Of a DNA stretch of 64,000 nucleotides, positions 7,759 to 41,574 are shown piece by piece. Each line of letters starts with the position of its first letter. Within the stretch, counting starts at the first letter, position 1. A model generated the notes under the pieces. The model did no database searches, was not told the origin of the DNA, and saw nothing but the letters and a program-made list of their open reading frames with translations. Source of the stretch: Mycoemilia scoparia (taxonomy: Eukaryota > Kickxellomycota > Kickxellomycetes > Kickxellales > Kickxellaceae); assembly GCA_027575805.1 (NCBI GenBank), contig JANBPU010000054.1, forward strand, positions 1-64,000, given 5' to 3'. The position numbers and the translations under genes were made by a program.

Positions 7759-8180
7759 TCAGCCAAAATTGGTACTTTGCAGGTTCAAGTCAAAAAGTGT
7801 GTATTGGATTTTCAAAAGATTCAAGTGCTTTTCAGAGTATCCAATTACCAGAGTAAAGGGCTTCGAGCTTGCCAGAGAACACCCCATATAATATAATATC
7901 TGGCTTGTATTGATAGCACTACTATCAAATTCGACCAAATACTATAATACATTAAAAAGAACAATAATGAAGAAAATATTAATTAATATCAACATGATTG
8001 TCTGTATCTACGTAAAAACTATGTCTATATAGTATATATAGCTCTGAAAATTTATACACTTACAATGGAGCTTTCATCGATGATTTTGGTAATTTTTTGT
8101 ATGAACTCATTTTCATCATCGATTTTAAGTCCATCGATGTAATATGATTCCAATTCCTCTCCGTGAAATAGACCCAACAT
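7759..8180 (-). CDS. small ubiquitin-fold-like protein, copy 1 (2 exons)
   Basis: Predicted complement(join(7759..7941, 8064..8180)), 99 residues; not visible as a single open frame because of a 122-bp intron (GTAAGT..TATTATAG, phase 0). Support comes from a second copy at 41170-41574 with the same start, same intron position and homologous protein. Exon 1 opens MLGLFHGEELESYYIDG. The order of a strand-like segment, an amphipathic helix (EFIQKITKIIDESSI), VEF.., and a closing strand (FTLVIGY) resembles the ubiquitin beta-grasp layout; this fold call is inference from pattern, not from a match I can compute. There is no C-terminal Gly-Gly; the protein ends NFG. MITEs flank it on both sides, and the upstream one begins at the start codon. 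Function unknown. Expression is unproven, and a decaying duplicate is possible. Confidence 0.62.
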
Positions 8181-8299
8181 ATGGGTAATAATCTTTGAAG
8201 GATGAATTTTGGTGGTTAGTGTTTATAGGGGCAATCACAGTCAAATGGATGTCCAGTTTTACTAGTAAACTTTCACCCTTCAAAAATTATCTCCCATAT
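8179..8299 (+). repeat. MITE copy D
   Basis: Runs from ATATGGGTAATAATCTTTGA to TTATCTCCCATAT with core TTTATAGGGGCAATCACAG and TTTACTAGTAAA. Its left end abuts the start codon of the 7759-8180 gene, so it would supply that gene's leader and promoter. Confidence 0.85.
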
Positions 8300-9345
8300 A
8301 TACTTTTTCTTAGATATTTTCCTAAAAGAGGTTTTTCGATCTTCTTTCCACTTTTTAAAAATCATACTATTATTTTCTTTAATAAAGTTATGATTAAAAG
8401 GATTTAAAGATAACTAATTTTAATTACTGTCTTCCAATAATAATTTTATATATCATTATACATTCTCACTTGTCCTAAATGTATAATAATAATCCTGAAT
8501 AAAGTCTTTTTTAGTTTAACAACTTTCCTAGTAGCTCAAAGTTGTTCTGAACAACCCGGGCCTGTTAGTACAAATGCAAGTTATACCAGCATTACGAGAT
8601 ACATTATGTCGGGGTGCCCTGATAACCTGCTAGATACTAACTGATGATTGTTGTAGATCACCTGCACCTAATGATCTGATCCTGGTTTCGGGTTGCAATC
8701 ATACATAGACTAGAATAGACTTAGTAGAGAGTACTTGGTTAAGCAAGGTTGATATATTGACCATAGCTAACAGACCTTGGATTTTTCAAATGATTCAACT
8801 CTTCAATTCTTTTTTATAAGCCAATAAACTCATATGGGTAGTTATTTTTGAAGGGTGACCATCTGCTAATAAATGGTGATCGCACATTTGGCTGGTATTG
8901 CTCCTATAATCGTTGTCCACCAAAAGTCACCCTTCATAAATTATGATCCATATTATTATTGCTATTATTCAGACCTTGTTGACTTGCTATTATGGAAAAT
9001 TACTTAATCAGACCATGATCAAAACCCAGCTCTTGATTTACTCATTGTTTATATTTTAGCTTTGACTGTTATCATAAACAACCACAATCAATCTAGAGAA
9101 ATATCACTAAACCCATCTTTCGCCAAAGAATATTGACATAAAACTACTACTATTTTATTACTTTTCTTTATTGGGGAAGGGTTTAAACCTCGTTATCAAG
9201 TTCCCAATACAATTCTAACACGCTGAATTGTCATACATACCTTTTTCAAGAAAGGCTGTTCAAGAAGCCTATACACCAAACTACAAGACAATAAATTTTG
9301 AATTCGAGTACAACAAATCAGGGCAAAAAAGAAATATATACACGC
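8300..9345. other. intergenic, MITE copy E and no gene supported
   Basis: AT-rich DNA between MITE D and the checkpoint kinase. The stretch 8520-8780 is less AT-rich than its surroundings, but I find no open frame, tRNA-like box or similarity to the rest of the window. The checkpoint kinase leader must lie in the last few hundred bases. Confidence 0.55.
8831..8953 (-). repeat. MITE copy E
   Basis: Inverted orientation relative to C and D. It runs from CATATGGGTAGTTATTTTTG to CACCCTTCATAAATTATGAT. Its interior resembles copy A (TAATAAATGGTGATCG, CCACCAAAAGTCACCC) and lacks the TTTACTAGTAAA palindrome, so A and E may form a subfamily. Confidence 0.8.
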
Positions 9346-12300
9346 ATGGCGAACCACTCTGGCGAGTATGGCATATCTCCGCCAGCCCAAAGAGAGCCTG
9401 AGGATAATATTGATGAAAAAATAGATGACGCAGTCGATATCACAGTGATTGAAAACCAAAAGGAAAATATACAGCCATTGAAACAAGGACGATCAGCCAA
9501 AACATTGTCAGCACTCTACAGCTCACACCCAGACGCATTGGCCCGTGGAGCAGGTTCAGTAAAGATAGGGCGCGGCGCATTGGCACCAAAGTCCATTGCC
9601 AAATCATCTGAATCGTCAGAGGATGGCGGTGTTGGACCCAGCAATAATAACAGTAATGACGAAGATGCAACCCGTGGTTCAACATCAATAATTGAACAAG
9701 GTCATCTGGAATTTCAAAGAGAAATAGCAGAGATAGACCCAGACTGTGACGACGATCCATTGGATGTTTATTTCAGATATGCTCGCTGGGCAATGGAGGT
9801 TCATACACAAGGTGGAGCACAAAGTGAATTGGTCCAACTTTTGGAAAAACCATTAAGACAATTTCGTGACCAAGAAAGATATAGAAATGATACCCGCTAT
9901 GTAAAGATGTGGATATGGTACACGACAGTAATCAACCAAGGTCAGGAAGAAGTCTTTAAATATCTTTTGGCTAACAAGATTGGTGATGCATTGGCTGTTC
10001 TGTATGAAGAATTTTCGGATTTGCTTGAGAGTCGTGGAAAGTAAGAACAATGCTTTATGTTTTATAACTATTATTATATGCTATGAAGTTACATTCTACA
10101 GTATTAAAAATGGATATGGCTACATTATTAATCTAGATACAACCAAGCGCATGATACGTATTCCCTGGGAATCAACAGAAAAGCCCAACCACTGGATCGC
10201 TTAAAAAGGCGACACGATGCCTTTGAGAAAAGATTAGCCGCATACTTGGCAAAAAAGCAAAGCGAGGGGGAAGATAGTGATGAGGATGCACTGATCAATG
10301 GCCCACCGAGAGAAGGTTCTGGTCCCGCTTCATCCTCAAGAACAATGCTGGGTGTTAAGCGTTCATCTCGCTCAGCAATATCAGCCCATCCAAACACCCT
10401 GCACCAGCCATCTACAAGTCGTGGTCTTGGAGGATCCAGGCTAGGTGATGTAGGAGCAAGGGGCAGAGGAAGAATAGGTGTAGTGCAAAGGGATTCTGCC
10501 AGTAGTAGAGCAGCTACAAATCCAAAAAGCAATAAAGGAAAGATAGCTGTATTTGCAGATCCAGATGGCACTGCAGGACAAAGTGCATCACAAAAGCAGG
10601 GCTCTGCTTGGCTTGACATAGGGACAAGTGCAACACGTTCGAAAGAGAATGTAAGAGAGGCCACGGCATGGCGAGGACAAACGCTCAAGCAGGCTCCCGG
10701 AAGACCAGGAGCATCCAGACCTGCAACACAACCAGTAGAGAAATTTGAAGTCTTTCGAGATGAGGCTGAGGAGGGAAATGATGCAGACCACGAAGATTCC
10801 TTATCACCAAGTCAAAAGGAACAACAGCATTTATCTGGTCAGGTTTTGGCAGCAAAGGATAAAGATTCTGTTGGGGCCACAGGATTCTCTTCCGACAAGT
10901 TCCTTCGCTCTATAGAACAGCCAAGTGAAAAGGAGGGTGCTCAATCTCAAAAGAAAAAAGAGCAGCCTTCAAGTTCGACTCGCTCTGCAGCGCCTTCAAA
11001 ATTGACGAAGCCATCAGCATTCAGTATTGATTTGGAATTCCTTCGAGCTGAGAATATAGACCATTCAAAAGACATTGAGTTTACTATGACACATTCTGTA
11101 GAAGAGATGAGAGCCAATCTCCCAAAGTATAAAATTGAAACAGCTGCTTTGGCTATGAAATTTAAAAAGTCGATGTCTCTCAGAGATGAGCCCAAAAATA
11201 GTGGCTCTGCGCAAGATCCGTCCTGTCAACGACCAAAAAGCCCAAAAAGGGCGGACCCTTCAGGCTATCATGAATACAGCATACCGCTAGGTCCAAATGA
11301 TGGTAAGTTTATCTTAGGAGTAAACTACCTAAATTGTTAATTTCCAGCACATCATTGATCCGCTAAACTGAGACTGTGTGCTTATTATTTATTTAGATGC
11401 CTTGGATGGGGATATAAGTACTAACCCGACAGGAAGAAAGATGACCGGAGATCTGCCTTCGCCCACTATAAATACCCGTGTAGCCCAGGCAGAAATGTTT
11501 GATATATGGAATGAGGCCGCCCCTTCCAGACCATATAAACAAGGTAACCCTAATGATGAGGATGACGACGATGAAACTCCTGATGATGATGGGCTAAACG
11601 AATTCGAGCGCGAGAGGGCAAAATCATCGACAGCTCCAAAGCCCATCTCTAATGCCGCCGCCGACGACGACGACTATCAGTTTACCATGGGCCCAGTTAA
11701 ACCAAACCTGAACCCTTCAAACACCCCTATCACGAGCCTGGGTACTCCTATAGAACAACAACAACACCAGCTGCACCAAGCACCAACTGTACAGCCTATC
11801 CATGCTTCCAGTAAGCCAGGTAGAGATGAAAATGATCCACCCACTATAATGTTGAAGCAACATGGCGATATTGTCAAACCAACGCCTCGCAATCCCCGGA
11901 CAACTGCTTCTGCAGTATCGGCAAGAAGTGGCCGGGCTTTGGCCCCACTATCTGCTAAAAAGACACCTGGAAAGAAGGCTGCCAAGCCAGGCGCATTGTT
12001 TTCAGTATTTTGTGATGACGGACTTCCAGAGGAAGACGATGAAGAACACGCCTGTTTGAAAACTCCAGCACCTCTTGGCAAAAAGTCTGGTGAACGAACA
12101 GAACTGCCATGGCACTCCACCCCAGCTTTTGATGGTAGAATGTGTGATGGGAGCAATACTGAATTCGAAAGAGGAATGAGCCATGGAGTATCCCAAATTG
12201 GAATAGACCCAAGCAATGGACAGACTATGTCGACCATCCACACACTGGGCTTGACTGGATCAGGCAACACATTCGGACAACTAAGTGGGCATGGTGGAAT

Positions 12301-17620: not shown

Positions 17621-18619
17621 ATGAAATTGTCGTCATCCATCTTCCTCCTGGCTTCAGCCTTGATTGCCAGTGCTGCTCCAGTTGATCGCAGAGCCCTTGT
17701 TCCTGAGCTCGTTGGTGGTGACATCAGCGTAAGTGCTGAAGTATGCGCATCCGTTCATATCAAGATTGGACCTGATGGTGTTCCATATCAGGATGAAAAC
17801 CCACTTTGCCCTGACTACCGTGATGAGCCTCCCACAAATCCTGGTAACAATGGCCCAGGCAACAACGGTCCAGGTAATAACGGCCCTGGTAACAATGGCC
17901 CAGGCAACAACGGTCCAGGTAATAACGGCCCTGGTAACAATGGCCCAGGCAACAACGGTCCAGGTAATAATGGCCCTGGTAACAACGGTCCAGGCAACAA
18001 CGGTCCAGGTAATAATGGNNNNNNNNNNNNNNNNNNNNNNNNNNNNNNNNNNNNNNNNNNNNNNNNNNNNNNNNNNNNNNNNNNNNNNNNNNNNNNNNNN
18101 NNNNNNNNNNNNNNNNGCCCAGGCAACAACGGTCCAGGTAATAATGGCCCTGGTAACAACGGTCCAGGCAACAACGGTCCAGGTAATAATGGCCCTGGTA
18201 ACAACGGTCCAGGCAACAACGGTCCAGGCAACAACGGTCCAGGTAATAACGGCCCAGGCAACAACGGTCCAGGTAATAACGGCCCAGGCAACAACGGTCC
18301 AGGTAATAATGGCCCTGGTAACAACGGTCCAGGAAATAATGGTCCAGGTAACAACGGCCCAGGTAACAATGGCCCAGGAAATAATGGCCCTGGTAACAAT
18401 GGCCCAGGAAATAATGGCCCAGGTAATAACGGCCCTGGCAACAATGGCCCAGGTAATAACGGCCCTGGCAACAATGGCCCAGGCAACAACGGCCCAGGTA
18501 ATAACGGTCCAGGTAATAACGGCCCTGGTAACAACGGTCCAGGCAACAACGGTCCAGGAAATAACGGCCCAGTTTACAATGGACAACAACCTGGTAAATG
18601 CATCCCTGTACGACCATAA
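17621..18619 (+). CDS. secreted PGNNG-repeat protein with two-cysteine N-terminal module
   Basis: About 332 residues as assembled; true length is uncertain because of an internal gap. Residues 1-19 form a clean signal peptide (hydrophobic core, cleavage near ASA-AP). A dibasic VDRR at 21-24 suggests kexin processing. Residues 34-66 form a compact module with Cys at 42 and 63, ending DENPLCPDY, which is shared with the protein at 21328-22404. The remainder is perfect Pro-Gly-Asn-Asn-Gly pentads, about 12 before and about 30 after the gap, closed by a short tail with one Cys (GKCIPVRP). No membrane anchor or GPI signal is evident. It is probably exported to the wall or outside, with a flexible Asn/Gly-rich polymer-like tail. 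Function unknown. Antisense and other-frame open frames across it are by-products of the repeat. Confidence 0.85.
   Translation: MKLSSSIFLLASALIASAAPVDRRALVPELVGGDISVSAEVCASVHIKIGPDGVPYQDENPLCPDYRDEPPTNPGNNGPGNNGPGNNGPGNNGPGNNGPGNNGPGNNGPGNNGPGNNGPGNNGPGNNGPGNNXXXXXXXXXXXXXXXXXXXXXXXXXXXXXXXXXXPGNNGPGNNGPGNNGPGNNGPGNNGPGNNGPGNNGPGNNGPGNNGPGNNGPGNNGPGNNGPGNNGPGNNGPGNNGPGNNGPGNNGPGNNGPGNNGPGNNGPGNNGPGNNGPGNNGPGNNGPGNNGPGNNGPGNNGPGNNGPGNNGPGNNGPVYNGQQPGKCIPVRP
17838..18570 (+). repeat. coding minisatellite, 15-bp unit (PGNNG)
   Basis: Tandem 15-bp units of the type GGTCCAGGTAATAAC and GGCCCAGGCAACAAC. Units differ almost only at synonymous third positions, so the protein repeat stays perfect while the DNA drifts. 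Variants recur in blocks of three (about 45 bp), showing that expansion happened by higher-order duplication. The array is interrupted by an assembly gap. Confidence 0.95.
18019..18116. other. assembly gap (98 N) inside the PGNNG array
   Basis: A run of 98 undetermined bases within the 15-bp array. The distance between equivalent repeat positions on either side is 99 bases. That keeps the reading frame but is not a multiple of 15, so the stated gap size is unlikely to be the real one. Confidence 0.95.
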
Positions 18620-21327: not shown

Positions 21328-22404
21328 ATGAAAGTTTCCAACATCGCATACACTATTTTCGCTTTGACCGCTGCAAGTGCGTCAGCTGAGCACGAGAAGC
21401 GTGGTCTTCTTGGCATCCTACCTGACATCAGCATTGGTGTCGACATTTGCTTGAGCGTCAACGTCCAAATCGGCGGCGATGGTAAGCCATATCAGTCCGA
21501 GAACCCACTCTGCCCCAACTACGTGTCCCCTACATCTGGACACCCCGACTATGTTGCAACTCCACCATCCCCTCCAGGCAACGGTGGATATGTAGCCACT
21601 CCAGCACCACTACCACCAACTATGCCAACTGCTTCGGTTCCACCTACTCTTCCAACCCCCAACAAGCCTGAGCAACCCCACGGAGGTTACGTTGCCAGTC
21701 CACCTGTAGTCCCTCCTACCAAGCCATCGAAGCCCACTGTTCCTGAGCTTCCCACCGGTATTGAGCAACCCCCTAAGCACGAATACGTTGCCACTCTTCC
21801 ACCCTACCCAATTCCCCAGCCTCCTGCTCCTACCCACTCGGTCTACATCCCACCTCCCGTTTATGTTAAGCCTACCCCTACTCCTGCTCCTCAGCCACCC
21901 AAATACGTAGCTACTCCTCCTGCTCCAAACAACGGAGGTTATAATGGAGGCTACAATGGTGGTAACCATGGTGGATATAACGGTGGCAACAACGGAGGTT
22001 ATAACGGTGGAAACAATGGAGGCTACAACGGCGGTAACAACGGAGGCTACAATGGTGGAAACAATGGAGGCTACAACGGCGGTAACAACGGAGGCTACAA
22101 CGGCGGTAACAACGGAGGCTACAACGGCGGTAACAACGGAGGCTACAATGGTGGTAACAATGGAGGCTACAACGGTGGCAACAACGGTGGTTACAATGGA
22201 GGCAATAACGGAAGCAACGGTGGATACGTTGCTACTCCTGCTCCTGTTTACCCCCCAGTTGCCCCAGTTTCTCCTGGGAATGGCGAACAGCAGCCCCCTT
22301 ATGTCGGTGGTGGATCTCCTCCTGTTGCTCCTGGCAACGGTGGCTACCAAGCTAAGCCACCTGCCCCACCCGCCCATGTTGGTTACTTTGCTACTCCCTA
22401 TTAA
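21328..22404 (+). CDS. secreted YVATP / GGYNGGNN-repeat protein, paralogue of the 17621 protein
   Basis: 358 residues. Signal peptide 1-20 is followed by a dibasic HEKR (22-25), a likely kexin site. Residues 33-65 form the same two-Cys module as the 17621 protein (20 of 33 positions identical; Cys 41 and 62; ending SENPLCPNY). Then comes a Pro-rich section with seven spaced YVATP-like motifs (YVATPP, YVASPP, YVATLPP, YFATPY), interrupted at about residues 205-295 by tandem GGYNGGNN octads, and a Pro-rich end. No anchor is visible. The tail is unrelated in sequence to PGNNG but alike in style (Gly/Asn-rich, flexible), so a conserved head has acquired different repeat tails. Probably a wall-associated or extracellular protein; the Tyr-rich repeats could be cross-linked, which is speculation. 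AATAAA lies at the stop codon. Confidence 0.87.
   Translation: MKVSNIAYTIFALTAASASAEHEKRGLLGILPDISIGVDICLSVNVQIGGDGKPYQSENPLCPNYVSPTSGHPDYVATPPSPPGNGGYVATPAPLPPTMPTASVPPTLPTPNKPEQPHGGYVASPPVVPPTKPSKPTVPELPTGIEQPPKHEYVATLPPYPIPQPPAPTHSVYIPPPVYVKPTPTPAPQPPKYVATPPAPNNGGYNGGYNGGNHGGYNGGNNGGYNGGNNGGYNGGNNGGYNGGNNGGYNGGNNGGYNGGNNGGYNGGNNGGYNGGNNGGYNGGNNGGYNGGNNGSNGGYVATPAPVYPPVAPVSPGNGEQQPPYVGGGSPPVAPGNGGYQAKPPAPPAHVGYFATPY
21935..22215 (+). repeat. coding minisatellite, 24-bp unit (GGYNGGNN)
   Basis: About eleven to twelve tandem copies of a 24-bp unit such as GGAGGCTACAACGGCGGTAA plus CAAC, encoding Gly-Gly-Tyr-Asn-Gly-Gly-Asn-Asn. Copies differ mostly at silent positions. Confidence 0.9.
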
Positions 22405-23263: not shown

Positions 23264-24130
23264 ATGAACTCTGAAATAAACATATTACAACGCATAATAG
23301 AAAACAATGAAAATGTCATAATAAGGGCAGAATACCTCCAAACCGAGCATCAAATAAAATGTGGAACCGAACTTTTGAAAGGTAGATGGGTTGATGAAGA
23401 CCAGGTTGAGAAGTTGTTGAAAAAGCTAGGTAAACAACTAGAAATCAACAATGGATATGTTGTAATAGAAAATGGGGTTGCAACCGAACACAAAAGAAAC
23501 CTCAAATACCGTAAATACGAAAACTTGAATACTATCGAAACACAAGAATATAAAGTCAAGTATAGTTTATCGTGCTTTTATGGCAAAGTCTACTTTTATG
23601 ACGGTGATGGTTGTGATTTCGTTGTAAAAGGATTAGGGAAATTTGGTGACCAGGATGATTTGGATACTCTGTACCGGGAAATCGATGTTTTTTTAGCAAT
23701 AGGAGGACAAGAACACATCAGCGGTATAATCAAAATGCTCGGTGTTGTCAGAAATGAAGATGGTGATGTTATCGGAATCGCTTTGGAAAAAGGAGAAAGA
23801 TTTGTGGCCGAAAATATCACCCAAGCACAGAAAGCCGAGTTATGTGATGGTGTTGCTTATCTTCATAGTAGAGGATATATCCACTGCGATATAAAAGAAC
23901 CCAATGTTGTGATAGTAAACGAACATGCCAAGCTAATAGATATTGGATCATGCTTGGCGGTTGATGACAAAACTAGCGCTATATTTATGACAGAAGATTG
24001 TGGAGATCCAAAGCTTCTTACCGGAGAAAGGGGAAGACCAGGCTTTGAATTTGACATTTATTGTCTCTGTAAACTGTTTGGCCTGGATAGCACAAAGTAT
24101 AAAACCATTGAGGATATCAAAAAAGCTTGA
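23264..24130 (+). CDS. small divergent protein kinase
   Basis: 288 residues, single exon. The first ~90 residues are charged and unrecognised. A shortened kinase domain follows: a VVK lysine (CDFVVKGLG), an acidic helix-C-like stretch, catalytic loop YIHCDIKEPNVVI (H207, D209, N214; HCD instead of HRD), and a DIG in place of DFG at 226-228. The helix-F Asp is in GFEFDIYCL. The chain ends soon after, so most of the usual C-lobe (helices G-I) is missing. The key Lys, both Asp and Asn are present, so catalysis is possible, but the missing C-lobe and altered DFG make a pseudokinase or a very specialised kinase equally plausible. I cannot assign a family. Start is the first ATG after an AC-rich leader. 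Confidence 0.7.
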   Translation: MNSEINILQRIIENNENVIIRAEYLQTEHQIKCGTELLKGRWVDEDQVEKLLKKLGKQLEINNGYVVIENGVATEHKRNLKYRKYENLNTIETQEYKVKYSLSCFYGKVYFYDGDGCDFVVKGLGKFGDQDDLDTLYREIDVFLAIGGQEHISGIIKMLGVVRNEDGDVIGIALEKGERFVAENITQAQKAELCDGVAYLHSRGYIHCDIKEPNVVIVNEHAKLIDIGSCLAVDDKTSAIFMTEDCGDPKLLTGERGRPGFEFDIYCLCKLFGLDSTKYKTIEDIKKA

Positions 24131-24421: not shown

Positions 24422-26510
24422 TTATTGTCCAGTCAAATGTCTAACCAACCAAAGGAATCCAGTCATCTCAATAGACATGATGGCAATGGCAGAAAGGTAG
24501 GCCCACATAAGAATCTCAGCGGATTCATCTTCCAACAACCCAATGCTCTGAGTAATCATAATCAAGTTGACAGCAGGTGGGCAAGATCCCAAGATAAACA
24601 GCACCAACAAGAGAATTGGATCATTGACAAATTGCTGGAATACCGATGGAGCAAGCCTGCTGAGAAGAGAAAAGAATACAATGCTGAATAAGGGGACTAC
24701 CAGGAATCGGCCAAGCATCACGATGATGGTTCCAATTAATCTATCACGTTTACAGATTATCAGCTTGGGCATTCTCGCTGTCACCATTGTATGGGGCGAT
24801 GAATTGATGCTAACAGAGTCTTGGTGGTGGTAGCTGTTTTGATGATGGTGGATTTGAGATTGATATTGCTCTTCCATGTTACGACTATATCTAAAGTTGC
24901 TGTTACTAAATGTCTCTGAAGAACGGATATCGGATGCATCGTCCAAAGTTTGTACATCGTATGAAGCCGAAGTCATGTTCTCAACGTTTGGCTGACCACC
25001 ACGGGGTTGTTGGCGGTGGTAGCTGTGTTGCTGCTCTTGGGCCAAGTTGTTGTTACCCTCAACATTGTCATAATATCCGCCACTATATTGGTTATTTATA
25101 GAGCCATGACGTGCAGCAAAGGCGACTTCATTGTGGGTTTCCTCAACCTCATCATCGGAGCTTTCGACTGGAATACCAAGCTGAGCGCCAAGCGCCATGA
25201 TGGTGATGGGAATTGCAGAGTCGCCAATCATAACCATAGCTGCCCACAATGATTTGATAGGCGACCTTTTGTTGATTACCAGCCACCGCAAAGATGGAAC
25301 CGATATCACGAATATTCCCAACAACAGACTAAAGATTGGAGGCGATAACAGCAGCGTGATTGTACTTTCAAGCGGTTTGAGGATACGCTTGAATACCCTG
25401 TAGGCTCTGCGAGATGAACGTCTAACGCTATGGACGCTCAGCCTCCTATCATTATTTCCATTTCTGAAGGAATGCAGTAGTGGTGATCGGTGGTCGTTAT
25501 TATCAGGCTCACCACCACCATTGCCAGTACTACGCAAGATTGCGCCATAGCCCGTAGATCCAGATGTTATCTGGTTTTGATGATTGCCCTGATGGTGACG
25601 ACAGCCATTATTATTATTGTCTTGATGGTAAATTAATGCATCAGATACGTTCTCCACGCTAGCAACCTCATCCTCGTCTTCCTCGTCATTAATAACCTGC
25701 TTGGGAGGTTGCAGCCAAATCATACCAACGCTCCACCGCATAATATTATTAACAAGTCCAAAAATAACAGCATAAGTAATACCACGAAGTGCCAATTCCT
25801 CCGGGGTATCAGTCTCATCGCGTAGCAAAAACTTGGAACCCGGACTGGTAGCAATACTGTAAATCAATGCATATGGAAGAGTATTGCAGTTATTGAACAT
25901 GACTGAGACTTCAATTAGGCGACGATAATAGTATTCGAGACGGCATGCTCTGGCCATTCCCCAAGCAAATGTCAGACCAACCATTGTGTACAAAAGATAG
26001 GTAAGTGGCTCAATCCATAGCTCCAGGACCATCTCCAGGTTGGCATTTTGAACAATCTTTGTAAACAGTAGACAGGGAGTGAGGATCTTCAGATTGACAG
26101 TTGAAATTGCCTAATTTAAATAGTGTAGCAGCAGTATAGACCAGTCAGTTTGTATGTTAGGAAAACATGTATGCGAATTTAGTTATTTTTTAATAAGAAT
26201 ATTTGGTGATCTTTTGAGCCAGGGAGGAGGAGGAGGACGACGACTACTTACATGGACGACTTTTTGGTCAAGCACGTTGCGGCGAGCAAAGAAATATCCT
26301 GGCAATGCGACCAAAACGGTTTCCATAACCGCCTAGAATTAACAATTAGAGTTCATGACAGATCCTGACTGTTGGTAAGTTTCCAGATAAAGTCACGTTT
26401 TCATAATACGTGATATATAATGATGACGACGAGGCAACAAAGCGATTAGACACTAGATTGATCACGCTGATACATACCTGAGCAGAAGTCAAGAAATATG
26501 CAAACCCCAT
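24422..26510 (-). CDS. auxin-efflux-carrier (PIN-like) family transporter 1 (3 exons)
   Basis: Predicted complement(join(24422..26110, 26252..26332, 26478..26510)), 600 residues. Small first exons encode MGFAYFLTSAQ and a 27-residue segment (AVMETVLVALPGYFFARR..); both introns are phase 0 with GTATGT and GTAAGT donors. About five membrane segments occur in the first ~170 residues, including TPCLLF and the family hallmark NCNTLPYALIYSI. A hydrophilic loop, membrane segments around 290-350 with IPITIMALGAQLG, a second His/Gln/Asn-rich loop, and about three C-terminal membrane segments follow. This is the layout of fungal ECM3-like carriers, thought to be ER or plasma-membrane efflux proteins; the substrate is unknown. 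The start is the first in-frame ATG. The second carrier at 29305-31811 has the same exon plan. Confidence 0.88.
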
Positions 26511-28209: not shown

Positions 28210-28237
28210 TAATAATAATAATAATAATAATACTAAT
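28210..28237. repeat. AAT microsatellite
   Basis: About seven AAT units followed by interrupted copies. Confidence 0.85.
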
Positions 28238-29304: not shown

Positions 29305-31811
29305 CTACACAGTATTAATTGAATCTAACCCGGCCTGGACATGGTGAGGGGTTGGGAAAAGCAATTGGGTAAGCCACAAAAACCCGGATATTTCGGCCGC
29401 CATAATGACTGAGCCGAGGAGATAACTCCAAAACAGAATAATTGCAGTTTCATCCTGGTAATAGCCATTGGCCTGGGAGACGGTGATTAGGTTGATGGCT
29501 GTGGGACATCCGGAAAGCACAAGCATTGTGAAAAACAGAGTTGGGTCTTGTCTAAGCACCGGAGCAATGTTGGGTGTCACATAGTATAGGAACATTAACA
29601 AGGCAATTGTAAATACTGGGGAGACGATGTATCTGCCAGTAAGTGTAACTATTAGACCAACTTTTTCTAGGTATGACTTTGTAAACTTCGCCTCCCCTTC
29701 TTTAGACTTTTTGGTTCTGGCTTTGTTTGAATTGGCCGACACATGAGAATCGGTTTTGGTAAATTCCTGGTTTCTATGTCTTGAGGTGTTTCTTCTAAAC
29801 TTGGTGAATATATTTAGCCTGCTATTAATGATTCTAGGTGTAGTAATAGGTGTAGTTTTTGGATTTTCGACGGACAAGGTGTCATCCGAAAGCGTCTCAT
29901 TCGCAATGACGACTGAATGGTCAGGCAGCGAGGATGATGATGATGATGAATGGGAAGATGGCTTTTGTAGTATGTCAGGTTTTGCCGAATGATAGCCACT
30001 ACCACACATGCTTTCAAAATATTTGCCACTAGAACTATGATGCTGCTGCTGTTGTTGTTGTCGGTGAAATGTTTCTCCTGTCTCGGCTGGTGTCGATGGA
30101 AGAGTTGAAGATGTGTCACCCCGTGGTGACGGTACCCTCTCGTAGACGGATCTTGTGACTCCTATGTTGGTGGGACTAACATTAGCCGGGTGGTCAGCTG
30201 AGGCCGAATGTGAGCTATTGGCAATCGACGTGGCTGCATGAGCTACGGCAGGGCTGGTGGTGGCTTTAGCGCCAATACCGGCAGTGGTGGCGCCACCAAC
30301 ATGATCACGATAATCGTCGGCTTGATCTTTTTTCTCAGGCTCGTTGCTGTTATCTTCTTCATTCATGAGACCCAATTGGGCTCCTAATGACATAATTGTC
30401 AAGGGAATGCTCGCATCTCCCATTTGCTTGAGAGCACCGAGCACCGAGTACAGCAGGGTTCCTGAGGTTGTCATGTTTTCCCTAAGGCCGGGTATAGCCA
30501 TGGTGATGATCGCTCCAATAATACTATACATGGGGCCACTGAGATAAGGCGATACATACTTTTGATAGGCTCTAGCGGTCGGCACTATGACCATTTTTAG
30601 TACATCGGAGATCTTGTGAACGACCCTGACCATGATGTGCGGTTTGACCACCACTACCAAATGCTGATGCCGCTGCTGCTCCTTTGCATAGTCATATCCT
30701 GATGTATATGAGCGCAAGTCGCTTTCATCATTAGCCTTCTTTGGGTATTGATAGAAGGACACATCTTTTTCCGTTGGAGTTTCTATTTCAACCACATCGC
30801 TTTCTTTTCTTCCTTCTTCCATTTCACTACCACCACCATAAATGTGATTACTGCTATTCCGGTTGTTATCATTCTCTTTATCTGGATCTGCATCATGGCT
30901 TTTGTCATAAGGCCGCATCCATTTAACGCCCACGCTCCACCGCAATATATTGCTTGGAATTCCAAATAGCACAGCGTATGCTATTGATCTAGCAGCCGCA
31001 CTCTCCAAAGTATCTTGATCGCTTTTCAAAAGAAAAGAAACGCCTGGGCTTGTAATGATGCTGTAGAGCAGAGCGAATGGAAGAGTGTTGCAATTCATTG
31101 AAAACACCAAAACATCGATAAACCTGGTATAGCCCTTCGGTAACCCGAGAAACAGCGAGGTGCCTCGTGAATAGATGAACCCAAATACAACGCAAAAGAT
31201 GAAAACAAGCGGAGCAATCCACAGCTTGATTAGCTGGCCGAGATCAAGGGATTCCAGCATTTTGTAATACAAGAGACATGGTGTTAAAAGGTTCATCCCC
31301 ATTTTCGATATACTCTATACATCCAAATAATTATATAAGGCCTACATAAGAACGTACATGAGTGTGTATGTATGCGATACAGCTGTTTAATATACTAAAT
31401 TTTGGCTTTATGACCATTTATAGGCTATATTTACGAACCTTCATAGTATTTCGATTTAGGATTCCAGTTTTGGATAAAACGAATCCTGATAACGAGATTA
31501 CCACGACCTCGACAATGGCCTACACATGAAATTTAGTAATCACATACACGGATATGTTACTGAGTATATATAAATTTGGTGATTCCAGTAAAACTGTGGC
31601 CTTGTGAATGGTATTTTTATTATCAGTACCAAGGATGTAGAGAGTTACCATGACAATATTAAATTAATTTCATCATAATGTTGCTCACAAATAGTCGACA
31701 CACAGGATCCAAACAAACCATATGTGGATTAACTGACCAGTTCAGCCAAAATTGTTGGTGAGGGTGGTTGCGTACCTTTATGGATACCAAGCAATATTGT
31801 ACAAACCCCAT
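29305..31811 (-). CDS. auxin-efflux-carrier (PIN-like) family transporter 2 (3 exons)
   Basis: Predicted complement(join(29305..31314, 31439..31519, 31776..31811)), 708 residues. Exon 1 encodes MGFVQYCLVSIK, exon 2 exactly 27 residues (AIVEVVVISLSGFVLSK..), both phase 0, matching carrier 1. Donors are GTACGC and GTTCGT, the latter unusual. Family marks: LTPCLLYYK, NCNTLPFALLYSI, IPLTIMSLGAQLG, and a terminal block of membrane segments with GCPTAINLITV. Two long hydrophilic loops, at about 180-280 and 365-580, are Ser/His/Gln-rich and differ almost entirely from carrier 1, while membrane segments stay similar. The loops are probably cytosolic regulatory regions (inference). The tandem arrangement with an identical exon plan indicates an old local duplication. 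Substrate unknown. Confidence 0.88.
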
Positions 31812-34636: not shown

Positions 34637-34764
34637 AAAGAGTTTGGTAGGCAGAAATGCGGATCCTCATCATATTTTGACCTAATCATCAGCCATTCCA
34701 TATGCAACAACTCCTGGGGTCCCATTTTGTCTAAGGCCTTGTGAAATATGACCAAATGTTGCTA
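34637..34764 (-). pseudogene. decayed dispersed repeat, copy 2 (best-preserved frame)
   Basis: On the minus strand this copy reads FHKALDKMGPQELLHMEWLM then IRSKYDEDPHF with no stop, and the copy at 42353 reads a related LCKMCPQELYMKSLVF..KYEGP. The matching protein pattern in two copies suggests a former coding sequence, perhaps part of a mobile element or small gene family. There is no complete gene here and no family I recognise. Confidence 0.45.
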
Positions 34765-35805
34765 GTATTTCGGGAATGGCTTTGGCTTCTTTTATAGCAT
34801 TCTACCCAAATACTAGGCCTATAATTTGATATATCAGAAAAAAAATTACCAAATATCAGAACAATACATTAAATAGGGCCAGGTATAAATTTTAATTCCA
34901 ACAATGACATAGGCACCTGCGACCAGAAGCGATTTACTTTTATTTCATGCCTTTACTCTATTTGGGATGTTTTCGAGTTGATAAATTCCGGAGTCTTAGT
35001 AGAATTAATGGTGGTGCTAGGACCCAAGCTACCAATAAATTTCCCGAAAGTCCGAGGATTACATGTGCTGTTGCTGCACATTATCATAGATTAAGTTATG
35101 AGCCATTGTCTTTTCTATTTTACAATGTTTATTAAAGTCATGAGATTGAGGTACAGGTGCATCACTTGAGGCCAAAAAAGGGCAACTCAAAGACTTTGGA
35201 TCCTAGAACTTATAGAGACATTTAGGGGCCATCAAGAGTCAGTATTACAAAAATGCTTTTAGGACTGAGGGCTTTCTTGTGGCAATCATTTCCAAGATTG
35301 CAACTGAACTTATTTTAGTATTACGTGAGTGAGAACAGCTGTGACTTGGTAAAGACAACGTGATTTGTGGGCTATTTATGGATTATATAAAAGACAATTG
35401 CACAGTCAGGACCCCATATGCACATGCACAGATTTTCTTCCAACTAGTGTGGGAAATAGAGCTATAATATGCAGGTTGTGAATTGGCCCATAGTCAGCCT
35501 GCATATCTTAGGTGTCAACAGTGGAGCTTTCAGGCTGGCTTTGTAGGTGAGGCGCATCTGGGCATCAAGATTAATTATTGCTGAGCTTATAAGCTGGAGC
35601 TTGTTTCTGTGGGGGACCATGGCGATGGGAACAGTTCTATATTTGAAATGTGCGGCATTCACACAAACACGCATATATACTTCATTCACTCGCCTCTACA
35701 TTTCGTTTTCTTGCTTACCTACTTTTTTTTCTCTCTCTAACTTTAACTAAATTGTTTTGATTTTAACAGCTAAACGCTTTTTTGACAACTGACAACCAAA
35801 GTTCA
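34765..35805. other. intergenic and Argonaute upstream region
   Basis: TATATAAAAG at 35394-35403 is a plausible TATA box for the Argonaute gene about 400 bases before its ATG. A strong 3' splice pattern (TTAACTAA branch-like site, then TTGATTTTAACAG ending at 35769) lies 36 bases before that ATG, and a GTGAGG donor candidate is at 35547. A leader intron is therefore likely though its donor is uncertain. Open frames of 60-75 codons here show no motifs. Confidence 0.45.
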
Positions 35806-38376
35806 ATGAGTGACCCTTACTTTTTGCCCAAGAGACCTGCGCTAGGTTCTAGGGGCCGGCACACTGTTGTCACCACCAATGCCTTTCGTGTTCTTCGTCA
35901 GCCCACTGGCATTATTCATCAGTATGACGTTGAGGTCCAGATGTTTTCTGAAAAGCCTGAGCATGGAAAACCATTAAAGAAGGTCAACATCAAGCGCATA
36001 CCAGATATAATCTGCCGCAATGCGTTCAGACAGGCGATAGAGACCCACAAGAACAGTGAGCTCAAAGGAATTGGCCTTATCTATGATGGAAACAAGATTG
36101 CTTACAGTACAAAGGAGATACCATTCAAGGAGAACACCCCCTATCTTAACGCAGTGCTGAACAATGTGGATCAGTACGGTGGTCCACCTGGAGCTATTTA
36201 TTTCCAAATTTGCTTCAAGTATGTTAGCATAGTCGACATGGACAACATTGCCAAGTATATTCGCGGCGAAGGAAATCTCCCAGTAAGCAAGATCACTACT
36301 CAGATCTCAATCCTCGACATTCTTCTTCGCCAGCAGGCTTCGTTCAACTATTACTCTTTCGGTCGCTCCTTCTATATGTCATCCCAGAAGGGAGATCTTG
36401 GTGGCGGTGTTGAGGCATATTCTGGCTTCTACCAATCTATCCGTCCCGCAGAACAGGGGCTCATTCTTAACCTCGACACTACATCCACTGCATTCTATAA
36501 GCCCGGTTACTTGTTGAACAACTTGCTCGAGATAGTTGGTGGTAACCACCCCAATGTACTTACGGAACTTAAGCCCAAAGATGTAGCACAGATCAATGGC
36601 TATCTAAAGGGTCTTTCTGTCACAACCAAAGTTGGAGACAACTTTATTGGCTACTTTAAGTTGAAGGGGATAGTTCCTGACAGCGCATCCAAGCACACCT
36701 TCGACTGGAAGGGCCACGACGGGAACCAACCTTCCCGCAGAATAAGTGTCCAGGAGTACTTTAAAATACGCTATAACGTTTCTCTTCGTTTCCCACACCT
36801 TCCACTTGTCGAGTGCACCAATCGCGGAAAGGTCCCCCTTGAACTGTGTACTATACCTGAAGGCCAGCGTTGTGCTCGTAAACTCAGCAATCTCCAGGTC
36901 AGAGACATGATCAAGTTCACCTGCTTGAAACCCGAGACCCGCACCAAGCGTATTCTCCACGGTTACCAGCAGATGAACTATAGTAACAATCCTGACATGC
37001 GACAATTCAAGCTTGAGATCGACAGAGATATGATGGCTGTCCAGGGTCGTGTCCTTGAACCACCCACACTCAAGTATCACGCTAGCTCATATCGCCCCAA
37101 CATTGTTCCAAGCACAGGCGTATGGAACCTAAAGAACATGAAGGTCATAAACGGAGCTACTCTTAAAGACTGGGGCATAATTGTATTTGAGGGGCCCCGT
37201 TATTGCCCTGAACAAATGGTCCAAGGCTTTGTTCGTACCCTTGTAAGTACCTGCAATGATACTGGCATGGTCATGAGTAACCGCGCTCCCTTGATTCACT
37301 ACGGTCAGAGCTTCCAGGTCAAAAGAACTATGGATGAGTTCTTGAACATATTTAATAGAACGAACAACCGTGATCCCCAGCTCATCTTGTGCATCCTTCC
37401 TACCATGTCTTCTAATACTTACGGTGAAATTAAGTGTCTTGGTGACACATACTATGGTATTAGAACCCAGTGCATGCAAAAGAAGTTTCTCAGAAATCCC
37501 TCCCGTCAATACTGTGCAAATCTTTGTCTCAAGATGAACATCAAGCTCGGCGGTATTTCATCAGAAATCGAAAAGAAGGATCTCTACGACCTTACTACCG
37601 TGCCAACCATGATGCTTGGGTTGGATGTGTTCCATGCTGGACCACAAGATGCGGGCAAACCATCTATGGGCGCACTTGTTGCCTCAATGGACCTTTTGGG
37701 TACTCGCTACCGTGCCATTGCCCTTCAGCAGCCACCCCGAGCTGAAATCATCCAAGGACTCGAGGAATCTGTTTACGACCATCTGAAGTCGTTCAGAAAC
37801 TCCACTGGAGCTTTGCCCCAACGTGTCATAATGTATCGTGATGGTGTATCTGAAGGCCAGTTTGAGCAGGTCGCCAACCAAGAAGTTCCTGCAATCAAGC
37901 GCGCATGCCAGTCGTTCAACAAAAGCTATAACCCCAAGGTTACTGTTGTCGTCGTCTTGAAGAGACACCACATCAGAATGTTCCCCACAAAGCCTAACGA
38001 GGCCGACAGAAGTGGCAATTGCCAGGCTGGTACTGTCATTGACCAGGGAATCACCAACTCTCAATACTACGATTTCTATTTGCAAAGCCACGCTGGTATT
38101 CAGGGAACTTCCAGCCCTACTCATTATTTTGTCATTTATGATGAAAGCAAGTTCCACCCCGATCACATCCAGGGCCTGACTTACAACATGTGCTACAACT
38201 ACATGATTTGCACACGCTCTGTGTCTATTGTTCCTCCTGTTTACTATGCTCACAAGCTGGCAAACAGAGCAAAGTTCTATGTTCAGAAAACATCATCAGA
38301 TGATAGACGCAAAAGAGCCCCTGCTAAACTTATTCCTGTCCATCGTGATATCCAGGAATCCATGTTCTTTATGTAA
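35806..38376 (+). CDS. AGO: Argonaute (slicer-competent)
   Basis: 856 residues in one coding exon, starting at the ATG of MSDPYFLPKRP; a TTG-initiated extension upstream is unlikely because a splice acceptor precedes the ATG. Order: N domain, linker, PAZ (around 230-370, with FYKPGYLLNNLLEIVGG preceding it), MID, PIWI. Slicer tetrad by position: D607 (LGLDVFHAG), E647 (AEIIQGLEE), D679 (MYRDGVSEGQ) and H773 (SPTHYFVIYDE), all present. The C-terminus ends SMFFM, close to the usual eukaryotic Argonaute ending. Role: binds small RNA guides and cuts or silences complementary transcripts. In a MITE-rich genome, repeat silencing is a natural job (inference). No Dicer or RdRP lies in this window. 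Codon use is richer in C-ending codons than the neighbouring orphan gene, which suggests high expression. Confidence 0.95.
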   Translation: MSDPYFLPKRPALGSRGRHTVVTTNAFRVLRQPTGIIHQYDVEVQMFSEKPEHGKPLKKVNIKRIPDIICRNAFRQAIETHKNSELKGIGLIYDGNKIAYSTKEIPFKENTPYLNAVLNNVDQYGGPPGAIYFQICFKYVSIVDMDNIAKYIRGEGNLPVSKITTQISILDILLRQQASFNYYSFGRSFYMSSQKGDLGGGVEAYSGFYQSIRPAEQGLILNLDTTSTAFYKPGYLLNNLLEIVGGNHPNVLTELKPKDVAQINGYLKGLSVTTKVGDNFIGYFKLKGIVPDSASKHTFDWKGHDGNQPSRRISVQEYFKIRYNVSLRFPHLPLVECTNRGKVPLELCTIPEGQRCARKLSNLQVRDMIKFTCLKPETRTKRILHGYQQMNYSNNPDMRQFKLEIDRDMMAVQGRVLEPPTLKYHASSYRPNIVPSTGVWNLKNMKVINGATLKDWGIIVFEGPRYCPEQMVQGFVRTLVSTCNDTGMVMSNRAPLIHYGQSFQVKRTMDEFLNIFNRTNNRDPQLILCILPTMSSNTYGEIKCLGDTYYGIRTQCMQKKFLRNPSRQYCANLCLKMNIKLGGISSEIEKKDLYDLTTVPTMMLGLDVFHAGPQDAGKPSMGALVASMDLLGTRYRAIALQQPPRAEIIQGLEESVYDHLKSFRNSTGALPQRVIMYRDGVSEGQFEQVANQEVPAIKRACQSFNKSYNPKVTVVVVLKRHHIRMFPTKPNEADRSGNCQAGTVIDQGITNSQYYDFYLQSHAGIQGTSSPTHYFVIYDESKFHPDHIQGLTYNMCYNYMICTRSVSIVPPVYYAHKLANRAKFYVQKTSSDDRRKRAPAKLIPVHRDIQESMFFM

Positions 38377-38554
38377 AGGAGACATGGGCATGCACATGCC
38401 ATTTTATATATATTTGGTTTTATGTAAACCTCTTATATCATTCTTTTTTCACCTATTTATTATTTTCAAGTTTTTTTGTTGCCTCTTTAAGTTTTCTTGT
38501 GTGTTGGTTACACCTGGCATTATTTAAGAATGCATTTCGAAGCCGAGATCTGTG

Positions 38555-38560
38555 AATAAA
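38555..38560 (+). terminator. possible polyadenylation signal for Argonaute
   Basis: AATAAA about 180 bases after the stop codon, within GTGAATAAAACATAAAAAT. Positional call. Confidence 0.4.
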
Positions 38561-39031
38561 ACATAAAAATATTTCCCTTGAATAATATTATATCACTACT
38601 ATATTTTGCTGAATTTTGCATGATAACTTGATGATAAATTGGAATTGGTTTGTTCTGAATTAACTTACCGGAGTTAGATCTCTGACTTAAAATGTGAGTG
38701 TTTGATCAAATTGGGGAAGATAGTCATGCCTGATGATGAACAGGAGTCGTTACTTTATTTTGTAAATGAAAGTGATTATAAAGCTTACACACACACACAG
38801 AATCAAAAAGAGCTACAATACACTGATGTATGTCTGAGTAAAAGTCTCAAGAAAAATGATCATACGCTTTAACTGTACAGAAAGTCTAAAATAGAATGTT
38901 CGTAACACAGTACTTCCAGTCTTTGCAATAACAATCTACTCAAAAATAGGGTTTTTGGAATTTGTTTTTTACTCTGTATCATTCGCTCTCAGTAGCATTT
39001 CTCAAGGTGAAACTTTTACCGAACAAAAAAG

Positions 39032-39039
39032 TATAAAAA
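39032..39039 (+). promoter_or_regulatory. TATA box of the orphan gene at 39174
   Basis: TATAAAAA in GAACAAAAAAGTATAAAAAG, about 140 bases before the ATG. A consensus box at a credible distance, so this gene is probably transcribed. Confidence 0.55.
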
Positions 39040-39173
39040 GGACCCATTGGCTGTACAACATTGTTTAATCTTTGTTATTAAATAACACATACTCTTTCCC
39101 TTCCTACTCACCCTATCTTAACACGCTTGTTTGATATTTCAGACCCTGATTACTTTTCAAGAATTTTATCATC

Positions 39174-40166
39174 ATGACAGCTCAGACGTTTCCAAGCATT
39201 GATGTCAGTTCATTTAGTATTGACTACTACAAGAACTACCCTTGGAAATTTGTGGTTCATGACTCATTCAAATCTTTGCTCGATATCTTACACAAACCTG
39301 ACCCATCATGTGCCATTGAAGAAGTCTATAGCAACCGTATCATAATGAAGCTCAATGTTGAAAAAGGCCAAAAGATCTGGCAGGATATTTTTAAAATAAT
39401 ATCAAGAGCTCAAGTCATTTGCGACCAAGATTTTGACAACCAATTGGAAAAATACAAAACAATGGTTTGTAAAAAACATTACGCCCATGATGAGTGTCAA
39501 CAAGAAGATGTTGGCAATAACGAAGATAAAATATTGTCGTTAATGTTCAAAGATCTGAATGAATTCATTGATACATGTTTTCAATGGGTATACTCTCTTG
39601 ACCAGCTATTTGAAGCATTTTCTGAACAATTGCGTGGCCACAGTATTGACTATGCAAGATGCAGTGCTGAAACACTGGGCATGGATGTCTTTAACGATTT
39701 TATTGTTGAATTCCGTGACGCTGACCAAGAAATCATGAGTGCAGAAATATGGTTTAAGTCTTGGGTGAAGAACATAGAACGTTGCAATACGTCTTATTCT
39801 GAGTGGTGGTATGATACAATGCGCAACACATATGATGCTGTTTCCAGAGCATTTAGAAGGTTTCTTCACTTTAGTCGAGTCTTTTGTGATGCCATGAAAT
39901 GTTATTTTACACACAATGGAATTGTGCATGTTTTTATCAGAGACCATGGTGGATTTGAGGACGGTTTAGGTCATTCGCCTGTCCAAAGAGACAGTTTGTT
40001 TGATACGCCAAATTCGAACTTTAGTTATCTTGGTGGTGGGGATAATGGCCAAGATGGTAATTTGGGTTTTGGAAACCCAATGGTTGTTAGACGCGCTAGC
40101 AATGCCAGCAGTATTTCGCATCTTGATCTTGATGAATTTAATGCTGCTCTTACTATCGAGGCCTAA
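39174..40166 (+). CDS. orphan protein, 330 residues
   Basis: Single exon starting MTAQTFPSIDVSSFSIDYYK. No family recognised. It is mostly predicted helical, Phe/Trp/Asp-rich, with about eight Cys spread through residues 45-245 and several Trp in the middle (FQWVYSLDQLF, AEIWFKSWVKN, SEWWYDTM). There is no signal peptide and no clear membrane span. Residues ~265-300 are a Gly/Asn/Asp-rich linker, and the tail holds RRASNASS, a basophilic-kinase-type site, then an acidic-hydrophobic end (LDLDEFNAAL). It has a TATA box 140 bases upstream and AATAAA at 40387, which support a real gene. The bulk could be a helical bundle. No operon-like link to Argonaute is implied; they are same-strand neighbours 800 bases apart. 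Confidence 0.75.
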   Translation: MTAQTFPSIDVSSFSIDYYKNYPWKFVVHDSFKSLLDILHKPDPSCAIEEVYSNRIIMKLNVEKGQKIWQDIFKIISRAQVICDQDFDNQLEKYKTMVCKKHYAHDECQQEDVGNNEDKILSLMFKDLNEFIDTCFQWVYSLDQLFEAFSEQLRGHSIDYARCSAETLGMDVFNDFIVEFRDADQEIMSAEIWFKSWVKNIERCNTSYSEWWYDTMRNTYDAVSRAFRRFLHFSRVFCDAMKCYFTHNGIVHVFIRDHGGFEDGLGHSPVQRDSLFDTPNSNFSYLGGGDNGQDGNLGFGNPMVVRRASNASSISHLDLDEFNAALTIEA

Positions 40167-40386
40167 AATTGTTGTTGAGTTTCAAAACCCCAACAACAGT
40201 GTTTAATTTCATTATTTCTACTATTTTTATAGTATCTATCTTTTAACTTTACTCATCATCCATTCCTTTTTTCTCCAGTCCTTTCATTTATTTTATGCGC
40301 TCATTTTTTGTCATTCATTTAGTTATTTTATGCTTGTTTAAAGGGAGATATGAAGAGAGGTTACTTTTTTAACATTTTTATATGCC

Positions 40387-40392
40387 AATAAA
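40387..40392 (+). terminator. possible polyadenylation signal for the orphan gene
   Basis: AATAAA about 220 bases after the stop codon, followed by a T-rich stretch. Confidence 0.4.
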
Positions 40393-40794
40393 TTTTCTTT
40401 TTTTGACACAATACTTCCGAATTAATTATCAAGTTAGTAAACTCATGACCTTAAAGTGGCTATAAATATTCAAATTACTAGTTTAAAAATTTTAAGCTAA
40501 TTGTGTACTAATTTAAATTTTACTCAAATAATATTCTCAGCAATTATTCACAAGGGATCTAACCTTGTAGAAAACCTATCTTTTCCTATTATTGTCGAAT
40601 AACTACATGTTTCATTTGTCTTTGGATTTTGATTTGAACTATGCTTCCCTTTTATTGGAAATGATAATAATTTGAACGTGTAATGTTTGGTAAAAGCAAA
40701 CAGCCAATTGCACACAAAGATGTCTAAAATCATTCATTAAAAAGAGAATTTCTAATACCACCCACAATTTGGGAAGATTCCACTAGTGTTCAAA

Positions 40795-40916
40795 CATATG
40801 GGTAATAATTTTCGAAGGGTGACTTTTGGTGGCCAAAGATTATAGGGGCTATCAAAGCCAAGTGGATGTCCACTTTTACTAGTGAACTTTTACCCTTCAA
40901 AAATAATTGCCCATAT
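40795..40916 (+). repeat. MITE copy J
   Basis: CATATGGGTAATAATTTTCG to AAATAATTGCCCATAT, with the CCACTTTTACTAGTGAAC core. It occupies the same place relative to the ubiquitin-like gene copy 2 as copy C does to copy 1, including the joined flank ATTATACTTTGTGTCTTTG. Confidence 0.88.
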
Positions 40917-41169
40917 TATACTTTGTGTCTTTGTAATGCTTGTTTTGGCATGAATACAAAGTAATTCAAAGCAATTTGAATCACAGAGCTATAAATTCCA
41001 AGTACTTTACTGATAAATTCTCAGCCAAAATTGGTACTTCACAGGTTCAAGTCAAAAAGTGTGGTTTGGATTTTCAACCTTTGTTTGAATATAAAGTAAT
41101 AAGATAAACTATTATTTACTCAAAAGGAACAAAAATCTAAAGCTTTCGTATTGGTGCCGCCATTAACTA

Positions 41170-41574
41170 CTAGCCCGTGGTATTGAATGTGAACTTTTTG
41201 GTTTCCAAAAGATTGGAATACTTTTTAGAGTACCCAATTATCAGGGTAAAGGGCTCCGAGCTTGCCAGGGAATCCCCCACATATTCTAATGTCTGGCTTG
41301 TATCGATCACATTGCCATTAAATTCGACCGAATGCTATAATACATTAAAAAAGAACAATAATGAAGAAAATATTAATTAATATCAACATGATTGTCTGTA
41401 TCAATGTAAAAACTATGTCTATATAGTATATATAGCTCTGAAAATTTATACACTTACAATGGAGCATTCATTGATAACTTTGGCAATTTTTTGTTTGAAC
41501 TCATTTTGATCATCGGTTTCAAGTCCATTGATGTAGTAGGACTCCAATTCCTCTCCGTGATATAGATCCAGCAT
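41170..41574 (-). CDS. small ubiquitin-fold-like protein, copy 2 (2 exons)
   Basis: Predicted complement(join(41170..41334, 41458..41574)), 93 residues; paralogue of 7759-8180 with identical exon 1 length (39 codons), intron position and phase. Opens MLDLYHGEELESYYINGL. A helix-like EFKQKIAKVINECSI, then VEFNG, SQTLEYVGDSL and FTLIIGY follow in ubiquitin-like order (fold inferred). The C-terminus (KKFTFNTTG) differs from copy 1 because about 120-150 extra bases are present at 41080-41210 relative to copy 1. There is no Gly-Gly end. Over 82 aligned codons, 27 residues differ, yet the 123-bp intron differs by only two substitutions and one single-base gap. Open frames and splice sites kept in both copies argue for real genes. 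Function unknown. Confidence 0.65.

Follow-up and report, generated by a model that had tools for sequence, protein, structure and literature searches.

Diverged exons around an ordinary intron in a dispersed, MITE-associated gene family of Mycoemilia scoparia

Why should two copies of a small two-exon gene differ more in their exons than in the intron that separates them? The question is raised by a pair of genes in a 64,000-nucleotide stretch of Mycoemilia scoparia (Kickxellales) DNA, positions 1 to 64,000 of contig JANBPU010000054.1, which is referred to as the window. The original prediction, made from the letters of the window, described the intron as nearly frozen between hypervariable exons and named diversifying selection on a conflict-type protein as the apparent cause, with constraint on a structured intron or homogenization by gene conversion as the alternatives. 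Both copies lie on the minus strand and follow one splice plan, and re-derivation of the coordinates confirmed this layout, with a GT...AG intron in copy 1. The identical splice junction is found in the NCBI gene model for another member of the family, the C344 copy (P0001), a model that is a prediction and not RNA evidence. The two copies and the units in which they lie consist of the following features.

8182..8296, minus strand: left MITE of copy 1, with ends TGGGAGATAATTTTTGAAGGG ... TATTACCCA, then TA; stops at the start codon (sequence and end-matching script)
8064..8180, minus strand: exon 1 of copy 1 (C417a), 39 codons (sequence)
7942..8063, minus strand: intron of copy 1, 122 nt, GTAAGT...TATAG (sequence)
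7759..7941, minus strand: exon 2 of copy 1 up to TGA, the 3' part of which runs on into what is non-coding DNA in copy 2 (sequence)
7538..7651, minus strand: right MITE of copy 1, with 1 base missing near the outer end (sequence comparison)
42249..42348, minus strand: left MITE of copy 2 (sequence and end-matching script)
41575..42248, minus strand: type A 5' region of copy 2, non-coding, with a TATAAAA box, identified by eye, at 41651-41645
41458..41574, minus strand: exon 1 of copy 2 (C417b), 39 codons (sequence)
41335..41457, minus strand: intron of copy 2, 123 nt (sequence)
41170..41334, minus strand: exon 2 of copy 2 up to TAG (sequence)
40914..41169, minus strand: 3' region of the copy 2 unit, with a 120-bp segment that is missing in most other gene copies
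40799..40913, minus strand: right MITE of copy 2 (sequence and end-matching script)

The counts for the pair were nearly reproduced in the exons, where 41 bases, 27 residues and 7 silently changed codons differ over 80 alignable codons (42, 27 and 8 over 82 in the original prediction), and in the intron 2 of 122 positions are substituted and one gap is present (1.6%), as claimed. The 3' flank, given before as ~7% different, is instead ~10% different, the repeat being 90% identical over 277 nt with the MITE included.

The window also holds other genes. At 17621-18619 and 21328-22404 on the plus strand are adjacent genes for secreted-looking proteins that by eye have similar N-terminal parts and unrelated repeat tails, composed of GPGNN (interrupted by a run of N) and GGYNGGN, respectively. 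An Argonaute gene of 864 open codons with N, PAZ, Mid and Piwi domains (Pfam) is found at 35782-38376 (plus strand). A membrane-transport gene with a Pfam Mem_trans match lies at 24422-26032 (minus strand), and a second, at 29305-31302 (minus strand), is similar to it by eye only. The 288-aa protein encoded at 23264-24130 (plus strand) has a kinase-like look (HCDIKEPNVV), also by eye only.

Gene copies and the units that carry them

The 21.16-Mb assembly was searched for further copies, with match counts that are lower bounds: at least 10 matches to the intron, at least 10 to exon 2 and at least 15 to exon 1, 10 of the last covering at least 35 of the 39 residues. The copies found are ten intron-bearing genes, together with eight units that share one common internal deletion of the gene. 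Type A units (C417b, C1, C344, C266 and C464a) have a 5' region of ~670-730 nt, and in type B units (C417a, C409, C113, C256 and C33), which lack this region and its TATA-like box, a MITE lies immediately at the ATG. Type D units (C464b, C19, C465, C157, C421, C375, C290 and C109) are those in which most of the gene is gone, the deletion lying between two copies of the 8-nt repeat GACTTGAA. Exon 1 comes in HGEE-like and RREG-like types, which are found in units of all three kinds. The 120-bp segment of the 3' region is kept in C417b and C1 and is missing from all seven of the other gene copies that reach that point (C33 ends earlier); we read its absence as a deletion that would have joined exon 2 to one-time 3' sequence. 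Damage is apparent in four of the ten genes: C113 and C33 carry a one-base deletion, and C266 and C1 have an ATC in place of the ATG.

The gene start is arranged differently in the different types. In type B, the MITE ends at the gene start and the A of the ATG is part of the TA border of the MITE (8178-8182 in the window; likewise in C409, C113, C256 and C33), and the start context is TATG, compared with CATG in the type A units that retain a start codon. Several type D units retain a frame of 25-26 codons in which the start of exon 1 is joined to former 3' sequence (L029-L036).

The gene copies adjoin, and in most units sit between, members of one MITE family. The left MITE end was matched by script (at most 6 mismatches) in 18 of 18 units, that of C109 being degenerate, and the right MITE end was matched in 13 of 18. 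The five units without a scripted right end are three that run off the contig, C344, which lacks its 3' end, and C464b, the right MITE of which is rearranged. The terminal core of the MITE end has 340 exact matches in the genome, compared with 0 for the pattern read backwards. The left MITEs of the units belong to different subtypes, and MITEs of the family are also observed in tandem, sharing or abutting CATATG-like ends (the upstream ends of L026, L028, L030 and L031).

Comparison of 33 pieces of outer flank yielded one cross match, which is MITE-sized. Since the flanks outside the MITEs are unrelated, the units appear to be dispersed through the genome and are probably mobile, and movement would depend on a transposase that acts at the ends of the MITEs. 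A transposase with such ends was found at none of the nine loci inspected, which were drawn from 16 matches to two families, DDE_1 and DDE_3. In 8 of 13 units, the 2 nt just beyond one end match those beyond the other, which may mark a target-site duplication around the unit or the TA borders of each MITE alone. Among these eight agreeing pairs, those of C1 and C421 are AA rather than TA, and C417a, the right end of which is short by one base, was scored as a mismatch yet has TA on both sides by eye.

The encoded protein has a predicted length of 93-99 aa. In ~5.8 billion sequences, the sole protein relative found, both by sequence (1 match from 1 candidate) and by profile (1 of 62), is the hypothetical protein H4219_005828 of M. 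scoparia, which is the C344 copy. The two spliced proteins have no Pfam match above the cut-off, the best being Tweety (E 0.006), with 15.8 bits where 31.8 are required, and a PDB profile search gave one match only, with an E of 9. An AlphaFold2 model of P0001 alone has a mean pLDDT of 55.8, which is too poor for a fold search. None of the literature matches listed is a publication on this gene family, and the M. scoparia genome literature matched there concerns another gene.

Divergence of the exons and of the non-coding parts

The excess of exon over intron divergence claimed from the pair extends to the ten-copy set, in which the mean pairwise difference is 17.5% in exon 1, 14.8% in exon 2 and 5.6% in the intron (exons versus intron by block permutation, p = 0.0002-0.0005 for a block length of 20 nt and 0.018 for one of 40 nt). 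The 1.6% intron difference of the window pair is near the low end of the ten-copy range of 0.8-12.2% (pairwise alignment). Comparison with the rest of the unit leads to a different description of the intron from that of a nearly frozen one. In the five type A units, exon 1 and exon 2 differ by 20.1% and 19.6%, the 3' region by 10.0%, the non-coding 5' region by 7.0% and the intron by 6.9%, where the 3' region is restricted to columns 1253-1334 of the long alignment and C344 is misaligned past its lost 3' end. The exons of these units are distinguished from all of the non-coding parts with p = 0.00002 (block permutation), and the intron is at the baseline of the other non-coding parts (block lengths of 20 and 40 nt give p = 0.33 and 0.31, respectively). 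Measured by site, type A diversity is 0.21 at third positions, 0.19 at first and second positions, 0.077 in the intron and 0.062 in the 5' region. The intron is ordinary for its unit and looks frozen by contrast alone; the exons are the outliers, with roughly threefold the difference of the non-coding parts, silent positions included, and the unusual feature is how old the exon lineages appear to be.

Pairs of copies with similar exons bear on this age. In three pairs, which were chosen for close exons (2.6-9.7% different), the introns differ by 2.5-5.0%, and the exon excess therefore lies in older splits. The excess is not present in every pair: between C417a and C409, exon 1 differs less (3.4%) than the intron (4.9%). 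The exon-1 remnant of the type D units has a diversity of 0.219, compared with 0.074 around the remnant. These units are gene-dead, and in-place selection on the protein therefore cannot act on them; the excess in the remnant was brought by exchange or inherited. The boundaries of the excess are sharp, with diversity dropping abruptly at both splice sites and no tailing off, and this drop is the least explained feature of the family. Upstream of the gene in type A, diversity is 0.115 from the TATA-like box to the ATG versus 0.063 further upstream.

Two properties of the intron were considered as causes. An A/T-rich base composition is not the whole cause, with A and T sites being 3.5 and 3.3 times more variable in exon 1 than in the intron; for exon 2, in which A and T sites are 1.6 and 2.7 times as variable as in the intron, base make-up may be a part of the cause. 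An introner element was also rejected, as 10 of 10 intron matches are inside this gene family, in a DNA search that scores best candidates only.

The main rival to the explanation that we prefer is constraint on the non-coding parts, in which the exons would change near the neutral rate (dN/dS near 1) and the 5' region, intron and 3' region would be held back for expression or movement. A maximum-likelihood dN/dS that is not clearly below 1 (0.87) and the uniformly low divergence of the non-coding parts are consistent with such constraint, as is the absence of almost any codon-position signature in exon 2, where divergence is 18, 16 and 16% at the three positions (0.179, 0.158 and 0.159) compared with 21, 9 and 19% in exon 1. 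We nonetheless consider it unlikely. Constraint of equal strength would be required on ~670 nt of 5' DNA, on the intron and on the 3' region, and 5' diversity in the gene-dead type D units, at 8.4%, is scarcely above the 7.0% of type A. Intron deletions of 4 and 23 nt are present in two of the ten copies, C1 being the copy that lacks 23 intron columns, and no conserved intron structure was detected: 0 of 29 predicted pairs have changes on both sides, and the folding z is -0.31. These results give no support to the structured-RNA intron that had been put forward as an alternative. Rfam gave 0 matches at the gathering score within the window.

Selection on the protein and exchange among the copies

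The count of 27 replacements to 8 silent changes, originally taken as a signal of selection, loses that meaning after division by ~192 replacement and 48 silent sites. In NG86 comparisons pooled over 45 pairs, pS is 0.249, pN is 0.134 and the intron value is 0.061; C113 and C33 contributed only the part of exon 1 that precedes the frameshift, and both were left out of the protein alignment. In all 45 pairs, pS is larger than the intron divergence; pN is larger than the intron divergence in 42 pairs and larger than pS in just one. Codon statistics (four-fold sites and dN/dS) were obtained from eight of the ten copies, the frameshifted C113 and C33 being left out. Four-fold sites give 96 differences in 469 comparisons (20.5%) versus 6.1% for the intron of the same eight copies. 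The dN/dS of both exons is 0.49 by NG86, 0.65 by LWL85 and 0.87 by codon maximum likelihood, the last method giving 0.63 for exon 1 and 1.11 for exon 2 with little likelihood gain over 1. YN00 (Biopython) gave 1.02 for both exons, a value based on 21 of 28 pairs; for the single exons, values were returned for 2 of 28 pairs (exon 1) and 16 of 28 (exon 2).

With diversifying selection as the only force, silent sites would stay at the rate of the intron. Silent sites lie far above that rate, and selection alone is therefore insufficient: positive selection on the protein by itself does not explain the exon excess. The original prediction had named in advance the combination of a dN/dS at or below 1 and an intron divergence equal to silent divergence as evidence against selection; dN/dS is mostly at or below 1, and the two divergences are unequal. 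A modified form, in which diversifying selection acts on the protein and silent divergence is inflated by the estimators and by linkage, would accommodate the replacement divergence above the intron in nearly all pairs and the values above 1 for exon 2 by maximum likelihood and for both exons by YN00. We judge this form improbable, as the four-fold difference is free of any estimator, pN rarely exceeds pS, and exon-1 diversity is equal in the gene-dead units. In the aligned exon frames of the ten copies, 0 stops were seen versus 2.9 expected (P 0.05), which is weak evidence for a maintained protein. Tajima-like values are weakly different among the segments (exon 1 +0.53, exon 2 -0.23 and intron -0.86).

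The copies appear to recombine, with segments that have different genealogies. Mantel r values among exon 1, intron and exon 2 are 0.10, 0.24 and 0.23 (p 0.30, 0.10 and 0.22), the value between the two halves of the 5' region is -0.36, and PHI is significant in both data sets (p 0.003 and 0.010). The nearest neighbor of C417a is C409 in exon 1, C33 in the intron and C113 in exon 2. Linkage (mean r2) is 0.25 in exon 1, 0.17 in exon 2, 0.24 in the intron (6 sites) and 0.14 in the 5' region (10-copy subsets). Incompatibilities within the intron are few (0.09; 6 informative sites), unlike the prediction of heavy exchange inside the intron. Homogenization by gene conversion, the other alternative offered at the outset, is supported as to exchange, by the uncorrelated segment histories, and falls short as an account of the intron alone, all of the non-coding parts being needed. 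Exchange among dispersed copies would place non-coding segments at one similarity level and would leave the window pair with a near-identical intron despite unlike exons. Exchange by itself does not explain the older exons.

The explanation that we prefer, and to which we assign an even chance, is a recombining transposon-borne family in which the non-coding parts are homogenized and old exon lineages persist. The gene would be the cargo of MITE-bracketed, non-autonomous units of ~0.75-1.6 kb scattered through the genome, the copies of which would swap short tracts via ectopic recombination or gap repair, a molecular route that we infer. Under such exchange the three kinds of non-coding sequence (intron, 5' region, 3' region) would share one level of difference, 5-10%, and the exons would retain older lineages at 15-20%, at silent and replacement sites alike. 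The exon lineages may be kept by selection for diversity, by a failure of exons that have become too diverged to convert any longer, or by both. Selection maintaining variants and failure of diverged segments to convert are the standard answers for such old lineages (PMC3924837, PMC3728101, PMC2474615, PMC6771003).

An artefact of assembly, in which the draft would have merged or switched near-identical repeats, creating mosaics and flattening the similar non-coding parts, is a more doubtful alternative still. Contigs do end inside units (C33, C266 and C465), and exact shared stretches reach 120 nt, with stretches of at least 55 nt in 70 of 153 unit pairs and of at least 77 nt in 21 of 153, lengths at which short-read switching is possible. 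Most units, however, are within contigs and have unrelated flanks on both sides, and merging would not be expected to halt at splice sites or to leave non-coding differences of 6-7%. Least probable is an exon-level process (for example, exchange via spliced RNA copies that is confined to single exons) that would import or keep silent and replacement variation and stop at the splice sites, which has its basis in the sharp drop there and would suit the more diverse stretch after the TATA box, but for which no intron-less copy exists among the matches (10 to the intron for 10 to exon 2) and the kinds of change are similar by eye in exons and non-coding parts.

The family illustrates that positive selection is not demonstrated merely by numerous amino-acid changes next to a quiet intron, and that silent sites and other non-coding baselines need checking.

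Comparison with known systems

Pack-type elements carry pieces of genes between inverted repeats. The Mycoemilia units are similar in that inverted-repeat ends bracket the gene and the dispersed copies include internal-deletion derivatives. They differ from Pack-type elements in having a whole MITE at each end, with left MITEs that vary among units, and neither a parent gene nor a transposase tied to the ends was found. The family also recalls the wtf killer meiotic drivers of fission yeast, which are described as a fast-changing fungal multigene family with inter-locus exchange, as here. No sequence relation was seen, and nothing in the Mycoemilia family shows drive or a poison/antidote pair.

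Introns that are more alike than exons among paralogues, as observed here, are described for two snake gene families, the viperid three-finger toxins (PMC2474615) and the small serum proteins (PMC6609765). In both families, exon segments differ among copies, again as here, and some pairs of small serum proteins have KA/KS values above 1 (1.74 and 1.54; PMC6609765). The snake families have known secreted products, whereas the Mycoemilia gene has a putative product, lies in dispersed transposon-like units and has silent sites that are equally raised.

Islands within exons where silent and replacement differences stand out from homogenized sequence, like those of the Mycoemilia units, are described for GOT1p1 and GOT1p2 of Tigriopus (PMC3728101), where they are discussed as possible selection maintaining divergence; theory for gene-converting paralogues with islands of divergence is presented in PMC3924837. 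Unlike the Mycoemilia units, GOT1p1 and GOT1p2 are two linked loci without introns, and the other pair of that study, GOT1Sd and GOT1Sr, has the opposite pattern, with exons converted and an intron diverged (PMC3728101). In the Arabidopsis RPP8 NLR family (PMC6771003), inter-locus exchange is accompanied by diversity beyond neutral simulation, and exchange appears to occur in Mycoemilia too; RPP8 has population data and a known function, and the Mycoemilia family is read from the sequence of one genome. Beside these systems, the Mycoemilia family would provide a compact case, from an early-diverging fungal lineage, of gene copies in transposon-like units that behave as a recombining population in one genome, where exons lie within bases of non-coding parts that appear to differ from them in age.
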